DNA of 34,697 bases from a virus, in IMG/VR virus record IMGVR_UViG_3300011113_000338, positions 1 through 34,697 of that record, one strand, 5' to 3'. The translations under genes were made by a program, and so were the position numbers. The notes beneath the pieces are model-generated. The model did not search any database. It was not told the DNA's origin and saw only the letters and a list, made by a program, of their open reading frames with translations. How positions within the stretch are numbered: the first letter of the stretch is position 1; the number at the start of each line of letters is the position of its first letter. Shown piece after piece: positions 4,074 through 10,052 of the stretch.

Positions 4074-4311
4074 TCTGCTCCTTTTGCATTCTTTCAAGCT
4101 CATGCTCAAAATCAGCAATTCTATTTTTGATATGTTCGCTAATACCTAGCAGACACGCTCGAGCACCAGCGAACTCTGCATAATCGCTACCTGTCGTAGC
4201 GCCTGCTTTAAATCCAGCGATAAACGCATCCTCTGCCAGCAGCATTTCTGCGTGCGACGAGAACGCTAGCTTTTGGCTAAACTCTCTAGCCTTTTCTTTT
4301 GCTTTGTTCAT
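4066..4311 (-). CDS. Small phage protein with AFIAGF-AG motif
   Basis: An 81-aa largely helical protein of unknown function. LLAEDAFIAGFKAGA (residues about 24-38) is the shared motif of this block. The C-terminus is a charged helix (IADFEHELERMQKEQNE). A GGAG site lies 7 nt upstream in the leader ATTGGAGA that many early genes here share. Confidence 0.7.
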   Translation of the reverse strand: MNKAKEKAREFSQKLAFSSHAEMLLAEDAFIAGFKAGATTGSDYAEFAGARACLLGISEHIKNRIADFEHELERMQKEQNE

Positions 4312-4329
4312 ATTTCTCCAATAGGTGTT

Positions 4330-4670
4330 GGTTGGTGAGTTAAGGCAGAGTAGGAAACCTGGGGCTTGGTTAGTCGGACTATGTCTAAACTAAGTTCTCT
4401 TGTTAGCATAATCGGTCATTAAGGCGTTAGTTGTTCACAGTTCAGGTAATCGGACTTCCCTCGATTTCCCATATCCACAGTATGGTGCAAATGATTGGAC
4501 TCGAACCAATGCTTCCAGATTAGGCATCTAGTGCTCTACCAGCTGAGCTACTTTTGCTTTTGCCATTTTCTAATGACGAACTGCTACGGACTCGCGCAAG
4601 ACCTACGTGATTAAGCACACGAGCATGCTTTTCCCCAACGCTTTTCCCTCCCTGCACTAACTCACCAACC
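4330..4670. repeat. 13-bp inverted repeat flanking the tRNA interval
   Basis: GGTTGGTGAGTTA at 4330-4342 recurs as its exact reverse complement at 4658-4670, with partial pairing continuing inward (GGCAG against GTGCAG). The interval between holds the tRNA and no credible protein gene. In a leftward transcript the arms could pair and enclose the tRNA as a processing stem. A small inserted cassette is an alternative. A related GTTGGTTAGTTA occurs near 4987. Confidence 0.6.
4483..4557 (-). tRNA. tRNA-like gene, apparent anticodon CCT (Arg), atypical
   Basis: A 75-nt cloverleaf with encoded 3' ACCA. The acceptor is GCAAAAG/CATTTGC with one A-A mismatch. The D arm is GCTC/GAGC with GGTA in the loop. 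The anticodon stem is CTAGA/TCTGG and the T arm is ATTGG/CCAAT around TTCGAGT. The seven-base anticodon loop is TGCCTAA, placing CCT at 34-36 (decoding AGG, Arg). Position 33 is G instead of the near-universal U. The mismatch and G33 suggest either an unusual or a decaying tRNA. It lies leftward inside the early block. Confidence 0.75.
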
Positions 4671-4677
4671 TTGTTCA

Positions 4678-4974
4678 TTACGCCTTGTAGTCGCTCATTA
4701 CCGTCTGATCGACTTCAATCTCACACGTCCAGTTAGCCTGCTGTATTGCAGCATCTACTAGACGAAGCTGCCTAGCATGCCAGTCATACTCCGCAGTCAC
4801 TTGCGATGCTGTGAGCTTGGGAACCTGAGCGATGATGTCGTCAAGGCTCTCTGTCACCTGACGGCGCTGAGCCTTAACCTCAAACAAATTCTTATCTTGA
4901 ATGTGCTTGAGCATATCTACCTTACCTTGAAGCTCCTTACGCCTAAGAAGTGCTTCTGCTAATTTTACTTTCAT
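4678..4974 (-). CDS. DIP1984-like (septicolysin-related) helical protein
   Basis: A 98-aa almost wholly alpha-helical protein. The N-terminal pattern MKVKLAEALLRRKELQGKVDML resembles DIP1984/DUF6847 family proteins, which share 'KLAEAL..R..LQ...' and end in an 'I..AN' type helix, here VDAAIQQANWTCEIE. It is shorter than typical family members (about 150 aa), mainly between the first and last helices. Molecular role is unknown. A strong GGAGGA site lies before the ATG. Confidence 0.55.
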   Translation of the reverse strand: MKVKLAEALLRRKELQGKVDMLKHIQDKNLFEVKAQRRQVTESLDDIIAQVPKLTASQVTAEYDWHARQLRLVDAAIQQANWTCEIEVDQTVMSDYKA

Positions 4975-4991: not shown

Positions 4992-5246
4992 TTAGTTACC
5001 AAATACTGCTACAATTTTCTCTTCAACTTTCTTCAAAGCTGTCTCGAGGTCATCTAAGTTAATGGGACTCATCGTACCGGCATGAAATCCAGCTATAAAC
5101 GCTCTCTGCAGGTCCATCACTGTTAGTGGCTCGCCTGGAGCTGCCTTAACAATGTGCTCGCAGTATTGGAACGCAAGCTTTGTGGCTTTTTGGTCCAACT
5201 GCTCCATTAAATCTCCCATATCTTTTATCTCTTTGTACTCGTCCAT
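4992..5246 (-). CDS. Small phage protein with AFIAGF-AG motif
   Basis: An 84-aa protein. The ATG at 5246 follows GGAGAGTAAG and begins 1 bp past the upstream TAA. The longer reading starts at TTG and overlaps the ribosome binding site. VMDLQRAFIAGFHAGTMSP is the shared motif, followed by a helical tail (LDDLETALKKVEEKIVAVF). Function is unknown. Confidence 0.7.
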   Translation of the reverse strand: MDEYKEIKDMGDLMEQLDQKATKLAFQYCEHIVKAAPGEPLTVMDLQRAFIAGFHAGTMSPINLDDLETALKKVEEKIVAVFGN

Positions 5247-5247
5247 C

Positions 5248-5601
5248 TTACTCTCCAAACCTTAACATTCCGATTAACTCATCCCTGTAAATCTGACCTC
5301 CGTTCCAGTACGCCTTGCCGTCTAGTGGGCTAGTCTTCTCAAACTGCACCAGATGAAAGCCACAGAACGTAGGATCGTTTTTACAGGCCGCTACGACTCT
5401 CTCAATCAACTTATTTTGCGAGAACGTAATACCTGACATGTATCGTTTCTCTTCAATTAGCATCCACTTGTTACGCTTATAATCGCACCAAATGTAGTCT
5501 ATGTTGGTAGCTGCGTAGCCTAGATTGCTTGCTATTTCAGGTTGCTCTCTAAGCCAGATACCAAACTCGGTTGAGTGGTCGTCGTTTCTTGGCCTAGTCA
5601 T
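5248..5601 (-). CDS. Putative PD-(D/E)XK nuclease
   Basis: A 117-aa protein. It begins RPRNDDHSTEFGIWLREQPEI, then NIDYIW with Asp35, then WMLIEEKR with Glu50 and Lys52, giving the E-x12+-D-x14-E-x-K spacing of PD-(D/E)XK enzymes. The later segment FCGFHLVQFEKTSPLDG is a conserved-looking core strand. Similar proteins are frequent in phages of Gram-negative bacteria but uncharacterised. I infer a nuclease or DNA-processing role. Its ATG overlaps the upstream gene by 8 bp. Confidence 0.6.
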   Translation of the reverse strand: MTRPRNDDHSTEFGIWLREQPEIASNLGYAATNIDYIWCDYKRNKWMLIEEKRYMSGITFSQNKLIERVVAACKNDPTFCGFHLVQFEKTSPLDGKAYWNGGQIYRDELIGMLRFGE

Positions 5602-5845
5602 TTTCTATCATCTTAAAAAAGTCATCCTCCTGCTGCTGCGTAGGGCTTCCCCACGTAATAGCTTCGTCGATAAGCTTTCTTAAGATTTCTAGTTCTTCTT
5701 TGAAGAAGTTCTTGGTTTCTTTGTACTCTCCAGACGCCTTGTCTTTGTACGTCTTGCGGAAAGTAAATGCGTGGCCACCGTTGCGTGTGGTCCACATAGC
5801 GACATCAATTCCCTTTTCTCTAGCTGCTTTTATAGGCTTACTCAT
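5594..5845 (-). CDS. Small nucleic-acid-binding-like protein (PC4/YdbC-like)
   Basis: An 83-aa protein with the order AMWTTRNGGHAFTFRKTYKD, GEYKETKNFFKEELEILRKLIDEAI. This strand-strand-helix pattern ('FTFRK-YKD..GE.K.T....EEL..L..L') resembles small PC4/YdbC-like single-stranded DNA binding proteins (inference). It starts with the ATG at 5845 behind a GGAG site. The longer reading crosses the divergent promoter region. It is the first gene of the leftward block, 55 bp from the divergent regulator gene. Confidence 0.6.
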   Translation of the reverse strand: MSKPIKAAREKGIDVAMWTTRNGGHAFTFRKTYKDKASGEYKETKNFFKEELEILRKLIDEAITWGSPTQQQEDDFFKMIEND

Positions 5846-5859
5846 AATTAGTCTCCAAA

Positions 5860-5900: not shown

Positions 5901-6110
5901 ATGACAATCAACACTAAAAGAGACCAAAAAGAACTATACGTGGATTCTCTCGAGGTGATGAAGTACTTGAGTGTATCAAAGAGTACGCTCGAGCGCCTAG
6001 TCGCTGACGGGATGCCCCACGTCAAGATTAACCGGAGCAGGCGTTACAAGCTGTCGGAGATAGACCGATGGCTTAACAAGCGCCTGTCTTACAACCTTAA
6101 GCATGAATAG
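5901..6110 (+). CDS. Excisionase-like helix-turn-helix DNA-binding protein
   Basis: A 69-aa protein with an HTH_17/MerR-type winged helix: LYVDSLEVMKYLSVSKSTLERLV, then MPHVKINRSRRYKLSEIDRWL. This pattern is that of excisionases and small phage regulators. There is no integrase in the genome, so it more likely acts as a transcription regulator than as a recombination directionality factor. The start was set at 5901 because upstream codons overlap the divergent gene. No strong ribosome binding site is visible, suggesting weak or leaderless-type translation. Confidence 0.7.
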   Translation: MTINTKRDQKELYVDSLEVMKYLSVSKSTLERLVADGMPHVKINRSRRYKLSEIDRWLNKRLSYNLKHE

Positions 6111-6118
6111 GAGACCTC

Positions 6119-6400
6119 ATGAAATACCAAGCGAAAGACAAGTCGGACTTACACAAGAGATTGGCGTGTATTCTGCCTCAATATCCACTCATCTCTACCT
6201 TCAAGGGCAGGAGTGGCGTTTATAAGGCCGTAAACGCCGATGGTAACGTTTTTTTGGTCACCTGGACCATAGAGGAAGGTCAGGACGCAAAACGCACTGA
6301 GAGGCTTTATATGGACTATAACAAGCTGGTCAGGGAATCGGATGCTCAGGGAGCTGGCTGGTTGAAGCCTGATGAGGGCTGGAGCTTTGAAGACTATTAA
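6119..6400 (+). CDS. Hypothetical early phage protein
   Basis: A 93-aa soluble protein of unknown function with strand-rich segments (SGVYKAVNADGNVFLVTWTIEEG) and a Trp-rich acidic end (GWLKPDEGWSFEDY). It lies 8 bp after the regulator stop with a strong AGGAG site, so the two genes form a short rightward operon. The AT-rich palindromic region follows directly. Confidence 0.6.
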   Translation: MKYQAKDKSDLHKRLACILPQYPLISTFKGRSGVYKAVNADGNVFLVTWTIEEGQDAKRTERLYMDYNKLVRESDAQGAGWLKPDEGWSFEDY

Positions 6401-6600
<200 letters not shown>

Positions 6601-6640
6601 GCTGATTTATCAAGAAAATTCAAAGATTGTGATTGATACT

Positions 6641-6753
6641 TAGAGAGCTATCGTGATAGCTTTGGGGAGTCCAGCAAAGGCTTCACAGCTTTCGTATGGT
6701 CTCCAATGGGCAAGGCGTAAGAGCGTAAAAAACTCCTACGCCTTGTTTTTTTT
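6641..6753 (+). ncRNA. Candidate small RNA or structured 3' UTR
   Basis: This unassigned stretch between the AT-rich region and the next gene has two clear stem-loops on the rightward strand. One is AGCTATC-GT-GATAGCT (6646-6661). The other is a rho-independent terminator (6711-6753). Between them is an imperfect AAAGGCT/AGCTTT stem and the unpaired-looking GGTCTCCAATG (6698-6708), complementary to early-gene ribosome binding sites. A weak -10 (GATACT, 6635-6640) has no good -35, so the RNA could also be the processed end of the 5901-6400 transcript. Confidence 0.45.
6711..6753 (+). terminator. Rho-independent terminator
   Basis: CAAGGCGTA (6711-6719) pairs with TACGCCTTG (6737-6745), followed by eight T (6746-6753). 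The T-run is on the rightward strand only, so it ends transcripts from 5901-6400 or from the candidate small RNA. It touches the stop codon of the convergent leftward gene. Confidence 0.85.
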
Positions 6754-8222: not shown

Positions 8223-8287
8223 CCGGTTTCCTGAAGGTAAACCACTAAAGCTATGCTCGCTAATGTCGTTATTGCTGCTATTATCAT
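8210..8287 (-). CDS. 25-aa membrane microprotein
   Basis: An ATG at 8287 lies 8 nt after GGAGA in the TTGGAGAT leader shared by early genes. It encodes 25 residues with a single membrane helix (IIAAITTLASIALVVYL) and a short QETGRLG tail. It is the first frame after a clean promoter and operator and before the recT group, so it is probably expressed. Function is unknown. The overlapping 69-codon frame in the same interval has no such start signals and crosses the operators, so it is left out. Confidence 0.55.
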   Translation of the reverse strand: MIIAAITTLASIALVVYLQETGRLG

Positions 8288-8304
8288 GATGTCGATCTCC
8301 AATA

Positions 8305-8422: not shown

Positions 8423-8662
8423 TTAGCAATCGTAACAGTGGTACGCGTTCTCAAAATACCAATCCGCGACTAGTTCGTCTGCGTAGGCGTCATAGACCTC
8501 AAGAGGTAACCTATCGTAAGGATGGATCGCTTCGTAGTACTCTCGAATCGCCTCAACTAATAGAGCTTTCGGCCGTGTTATGTACGATTGTATCAACTCA
8601 ACAGCGCATCTATCACTAGTACAGAAATGACGTAAGCGCCTATTCCAACTATTGCAATCCAT
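8423..8662 (-). CDS. Hypothetical early phage protein
   Basis: A 79-aa protein. ATG 8662 follows TTGGAGAT; the longer frame begins at the TTG within that site. It is Tyr- and acid-rich (EAIREYYEAIHPYDRLP, YDAYADELVADWYFENAYHCYDC) with no recognised fold, and looks like an acidic small early protein (DNA-mimic or inhibitor class would be a guess). A terminator follows directly. Confidence 0.6.
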   Translation of the reverse strand: MDCNSWNRRLRHFCTSDRCAVELIQSYITRPKALLVEAIREYYEAIHPYDRLPLEVYDAYADELVADWYFENAYHCYDC

Positions 8663-8707
8663 AACATATATCTCCAATGTAAACGGGATCTGAATTGATT
8701 CCCGGGA

Positions 8708-9717: not shown

Positions 9718-9739
9718 GATAGGTCTCCAATGAAAATTG

Positions 9740-10033
9740 TTATCCAATAAGGTTAGATGTACGAAATGAGGGAAGTGATCTAATTCTAGATCGTTTTTCG
9801 TATCGGTCTGGACTACTCCAGCAAGGCAAGTATTCCCGGGAAATTTTTAATGCCTCAGTGACAAGAGGCATATCACAATCTTCCTCGAGGTATAGAATGT
9901 TCCCTGCTTTGCTTTGGTAAGAATAAGCAGAGATCCGTTCTAAGATGCCTAATTTTTCAGCATCTTTACGTGATATGCGTAGCCAACCATGCCCGGCATC
10001 ATAGCAATACCGTAAGTATATGTTTTTGCTCAT
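9740..10033 (-). CDS. Conserved phage/plasmid small protein
   Basis: A 97-aa protein of a family common on phages and plasmids, function unknown: YLRYCYDAGHGWLRISRKDA, LGILERISAYSYQ, NILYLEEDCDMPLVTEAL. The 'GHGWL...SYSY....YLEEDCD' order is the recognisable part. ATG 10033 follows TTGGAGACTATACAT; the annotated longer frame starts at the TTG inside this site. It is the first gene after the leftward promoter at 10073-10101. Confidence 0.7.
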   Translation of the reverse strand: MSKNIYLRYCYDAGHGWLRISRKDAEKLGILERISAYSYQSKAGNILYLEEDCDMPLVTEALKISREYLPCWSSPDRYEKRSRIRSLPSFRTSNLIG

Positions 10034-10052
10034 ATGTATAGTCTCCAACTAT

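Follow-up and report, generated by a model that had tools for sequence, protein, structure and literature searches.

The DNA analysed here (the window), 34,697 bases in length, is the IMG/VR record of an uncultured virus. It has a leftward block of genes with RecT and GP88 and a rightward block with terminase and portal; by analogy with other phages we infer that the leftward block is early, and it is called so below. An element on the rightward strand at 6641-6753 is quite probably, judging from its sequence, the gene of a phage-encoded, multi-target anti-Shine-Dalgarno (anti-SD) small RNA (sRNA) that represses early translation; its transcription, its pairing in the cell, the repression and the timing are what we infer. 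The parts of the element are as follows:

6641..6753, + strand: candidate sRNA gene, predicted RNA from about 6645 to 6750, about 105 nucleotides (nt) (fold z = -4.7; analogues at the matching place in relatives)
6635..6640, + strand: possible -10 element GATACT, weak (sequence comparison; missed by the consensus promoter scan)
6644..6663, + strand: 5' hairpin (fold)
6666..6704, + strand: second hairpin with a UUCA loop, its basal GGAG pairing with the anti-SD CUCC (folds)
6698..6708, + strand: anti-SD segment GGUCUCCAAUG (exact second copy at 9722-9732; co-varies with the early ribosome binding sites (RBSs) of relatives)
6708..6753, + strand: Rho-independent terminator, a 12-base-pair (bp) stem and then a T-tract (fold and sequence)

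The fold of the whole stretch has an energy of -43.3 kcal/mol, which was equalled by none of 200 shuffles, and consists of two hairpins followed by the terminator hairpin (6708-6748) and the T-tract. This agrees with an earlier reading made from the letters alone (the sequence-only reading), which had described a structured, terminator-ended stretch, and it points to an independent short gene with a Rho-independent terminator. The + strand of the window has exactly two copies of the 11-mer GGTCTCCAATG, one at 6698-6708 and one at 9722-9732, and the second copy lies over the RBS of the leftward GP88-family gene, as that reading had noticed. Also found again were the shorter matches of 7-9 nt that it had listed for the gene starts 4311, 5246, 5845, 8287, 8662 and 10033, each over the RBS. 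The predicted targets are:

9722..9732, - strand: RBS of the GP88-family gene (start 9717; Pfam PF17338), CATTGGAGACC, 11-nt match
10041..10048, - strand: RBS of the gene starting at 10033, TTGGAGAC, 8-nt match
8671..8679, - strand: RBS of the gene starting at 8662, CATTGGAGA, 9-nt match
8296..8303, - strand: RBS of the small open reading frame (ORF) starting at 8287, ATTGGAGA, 8-nt match
5851..5858, - strand: RBS of the gene starting at 5845, TTGGAGAC, 8-nt match
5252..5258, - strand: RBS of the gene starting at 5246, TTGGAGA, 7-nt match
4315..4322, - strand: RBS of the gene starting at 4311, ATTGGAGA, 8-nt match
6110..6116, + strand: possible further target, RBS of the rightward gene 6119-6400, GGAGACC, 7-nt match

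The complement of TCTCCAA, TTGGAGA, occurs 11 times in the window compared to 4.0 expected, and none of 100 shuffles reached this 2.7-fold excess. Of these copies, ten are leftward. Seven of the ten coincide with the RBSs of genes that have their starts at 4311, 5246, 5845, 8287, 8662, 9717 and 10033; of the remaining three, one is the sRNA element itself and two lie elsewhere (3861, 32298). The longest complement of the sRNA per RBS is 11 nt (9717), 9 nt (8662), 8 nt (10033, 4311, 5845) or 7 nt (5246). When the flanks of the sRNA around CTCC were shuffled, the number of 8-nt matches in the window was reached by 0 of 2000 shuffles, which suggests a C/U-rich segment complementary to the SD sequences of several messenger RNAs (mRNAs) beyond chance. 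A comparison of duplex energies between all early and all late RBSs of the window alone was not significant (P = 0.21) because most early RBSs are no targets, whereas the contiguous-match test is significant. Most of the predicted target proteins have no family assignment; for the gene starting at 5845, family members in relatives adjoin the sRNA.

Relatives were collected from the IMG/VR viral contigs by homology to the portal and RecT proteins. A DNA similarity search of the region against annotated phages gave no match, searches of the viral contigs with the RNA, which finds no relative by DNA similarity, and with its flanking genes gave nothing because the flanking genes diverge, and gp88 as bait recovered distant phages only, while the portal and RecT baits worked. 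The portal protein recovered 80 related contigs, and reading the DNA of those reaching the left end of the leftward recT operon revealed a similar rightward element there in L016, L031, L041, L061, L065, L068 and L093; L090 may hold a short degenerate version. The RecT alignment added 80 further loci, and in about half of these recT is followed, some 300-1,400 bases downstream, by an element on the other strand. These elements are antisense to the end of the leftward recT operon and combine a hairpin, a C/U-rich anti-SD segment and a terminator, often with a sigma70-like promoter. By computation, the RNA gene is kept at one place in many related phages and its hairpin co-varies.

In the largest class of elements, a hairpin of 5-6 bp is followed by a largely unpaired CUCCUAGUU and the terminator, usually with TAGACA-like and TATCCT-like hexamers upstream at sigma70 spacing. 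Sigma70-like elements could be read from the sequences of several groups, for example TAGACA-17/18-TATCCT and TTGTGG-18-TAGAAT/TACAAT, and a GATACT-like TTTGATAC lies 5' of the RNA in L093 and L068. Since MAFFT misaligned the short hairpins, their pairs were counted directly from the sequences. Across 18 hairpins of the largest class and two related classes, no mispair was found, with 2, 5, 4, 3 and 4 pair types at five positions. The other classes also have the anti-SD segment before the terminator, but its place differs: L061 and L065 have it in the 5' tail, and in L121/L123/L129 and the window it is near a hairpin or part of one. The segment itself varies by phage group: CUCCUAGUU, CUCCUUAGUUAG, GAUCUCCAAGUU, GUUUGUCUCC, UGUGUCUCC and GGUCUCCAAUG.

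This variation is mirrored in the target genes; for this comparison, only the RNA was used to define the sRNA segments. Early RBSs match the anti-SD of their own group in L016 (TAACTAGGAGG), L031 (CTAACTAAGGAG), L041 (GTAACTAGGAGG) and L166 (CAACTAGGAGG), as well as in L101 (TTGGAGATC and TAACTTGGAGA), L123 (TGGAGACAAAC) and L061 (GGAGACACAA three times and one 9-nt version); the L016 and L031 versions of the pairing sequence are CTCCTAGTT and CTCCTTAGTT, respectively. In the seven contigs holding both kinds of RBSs, matches of at least 8 nt were present at 21 of 120 early RBSs compared to 1 of 136 late or opposite-strand RBSs (P = 1e-6), and the difference persisted among GGAG-containing RBSs only (18/54 early, 0/23 others; P = 8e-4). 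Shuffling the bases around CTCC gave 3.1 +/- 2.1 matches, with a maximum of 12 in 1000 shuffles, compared to the 38 observed. As related genomes are not independent, the gene-level P values are optimistic and a family-level permutation is the safer test: when the sRNAs were exchanged among 12 families, the observed mean was reached in 0 of 20,000 permutations. The leaders of orthologous genes track their own sRNA, as in one cluster with CATGGAGA in L068, GATTGGAGA in L105, TGGAGACAAAC in L123, TAACTAGG in L143 and CAACTAGGAG in L155. In the main class, one flanking base co-varies (P = 0.014), whereas for a second base the test gave no significance (P = 0.15). The early strand has 42 cases of AACTAGG within 20 nt before an ATG, and the opposite strand has none. 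By computation, the anti-SD co-varies with the early RBSs of the same phage and not with late ones, and this spans about a dozen phage groups.

A scan of all viral contigs with a 17-base pattern of the main class returned seven stretches, all located at such elements. Four belonged to contigs already seen, and the other three have a hairpin, a terminator and recT sequence nearby. Of these, L182 had played no part in the analysis before, and five of its early leaders match its RNA over 9-11 nt; L181 has one matching early leader and L185 has none among the genes covered. Among 84,980 species genomes, none could be confirmed to carry a relative of this RecT or portal, and the host was not identified by this route. 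This absence fits lytic phages of unsampled hosts (portal-family contigs L013-L092), and the phages with the RNA appear to be a family of uncultured freshwater-type phages.

The proposed RNA would be trans-acting, with several mRNAs from the leftward early block of the same phage as its targets. Pairing over the SD sequence and its flank would exclude the 30S subunit and would probably hasten mRNA decay, which may be mediated by RNases, so that early protein synthesis would be damped or shut off. The sequence-only reading had proposed just such an RNA, broadly antisense to the early RBSs of the phage that encodes it, and the conserved position, the hairpin covariation, the terminator and the co-variation of anti-SD and RBSs support it. 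Several observations weigh on the other side. The consensus promoter scan detected no promoter directly 5' of 6641-6753, and the promoter of the window copy is poor or weak. In the minimum free energy fold of this copy, the anti-SD CUCC is paired inside the second hairpin, with an opening cost of about 9 kcal/mol, but when the RNA was cofolded with the leaders of four targets there was still a gain of 10-12 kcal/mol. The predicted accessibility of the anti-SD in the free RNA differs among the phages: L016, L061, L100 and L068 have it mostly open, L031, L093 and L123 give a mixed picture, and in the window copy it is largely paired. Furthermore, genes and starts were called by a simple ORF script, and no match of at least 8 nt was present among the genes covered in L156, L168, L126, L135, L133, L090 and L065, most of which hold only part of the early region.

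The element could instead be the relic leader of a lost leftward early gene, with no RNA acting, an alternative that the sequence-only reading had offered as well. Read on the leftward strand it gives CATTGGAGACC, which resembles a live RBS. However, in 85 RNA-leader pairs, the similarity stops at the pairing stretch, and the 15 bases on each side beyond the match have 28% identity, which is background. Common descent would leave a longer similarity, while selection for pairing would not. The T-tract of the terminator and the promoter-like elements face rightward. Many diverged phages have kept the element at one and the same place, and its hairpin is conserved in them with compensatory changes. 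Its few wobble pairs are G-U only in the rightward RNA and would be A-C on the other strand. A relic is therefore very improbable. It is also very unlikely that 6641-6753 is an ordinary terminator-bearing 3' untranslated region of the rightward genes 5901-6400 without a role in trans. These two genes lie upstream in the window and could read into the element, but in the relatives inspected (e.g. L016, L031, L168) the upstream gene is leftward and the RNA has promoter-like elements of its own, and this explanation leaves the co-variation with early RBSs unaccounted for.

A different question is whether repression is the main effect of the pairing. Sponge relations between sRNAs and mRNAs are known, and the early mRNAs could titrate the RNA off host targets or be stabilised by it, as the data bear on the pairing and not on its sign. 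This seems unlikely, since the SD itself is covered at nearly every listed target, which ordinarily blocks initiation, and since the RBSs change along with the RNA, which would be expected of a pairing that benefits the phage by way of those genes. Phage early-to-late control is usually ascribed to transcription factors, or to proteins such as RegA. If the widespread multi-target anti-SD sRNA is real, a phage regulon would be controlled at the level of translation by an RNA with which its RBSs co-evolve, and with about a dozen natural code versions this sRNA-target co-evolution would be directly testable. A more speculative idea, possible but rather doubtful, is that the pairing of the RNA with the early RBSs amounts to a private code that diverges fast. 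The RNA of a resident phage would then silence the early genes of incoming kin that share its code and spare phages with a different one, which would combine RNA incompatibility (superinfection exclusion) with early-gene shut-off in lytic phages.

Several features were observed around the sRNA gene and in the relatives. An A+T-rich tract with repeated TATGCATA/TAATTAGATC words at 6410-6600, between the rightward genes and the sRNA, is possibly a replication origin or regulatory region. L068 and L105, and apparently also L093 and L065, have a transfer RNA (tRNA) directly beside the terminator of the sRNA, encoded on the opposite strand; the window has a tRNA-Arg(CCT) gene at 4483-4557 (- strand). 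Tandem terminator-ended elements about 100 bases apart in L124 (4720-4850), L126 (6369-6499), L127, L131 and L135 (- strand) suggest two small RNAs side by side. A 98-amino-acid (aa) protein at 4678-4974 (- strand) of the window is 100% identical over 96 aa to one in L058 (3215-3502, + strand), at a different place and in a different orientation, while the core proteins shared by the two have only about 49-76% identity, which points to recent transfer or mobility.

A search with 4227 Rfam models at their gathering scores returned tRNAs as the only matches, and the matches of the elements at E<=5 were all far below the gathering scores. The model of the c4 antisense RNA, which we take to be RF01695, gave no match at its gathering threshold, and for the window element none even at E<=5. 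In phages P1 and P7, where it is part of their heteroimmunity, the c4 RNA blocks translation by pairing around an RBS (review PMC12197685). The proposed RNA is likewise phage-encoded and would block translation by RBS pairing, but c4 has a single target, ant, in temperate phages, whereas here one short anti-SD matches many early genes. The lambda RNAs OOP and aQ are also phage antisense RNAs, made opposite phage genes (PMC12197685), but each acts on the one gene encoded opposite it (cII, Q).

In the literature covered by our search, which left subscription papers mostly outside, there was no account of a phage sRNA pairing with multiple early RBSs. The sibling sRNAs SisA-D of Caulobacter crescentus share a common 10-mer anti-SD motif, and such a motif can repress many mRNAs (PMC12559287). 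The likeness lies in the anti-SD motif, but SisA-D are chromosomal host sRNAs acting on host mRNAs, in contrast to a phage RNA with co-varying phage RBSs. T4 RegA is a single phage factor that competes with ribosomes for the initiation regions of some 30 mRNAs (PMC3014915), and the sRNA is proposed as its RNA counterpart. RegA, however, is a protein acting on A+U-rich sites, whereas here the agent would be an RNA and the code would be base pairing.
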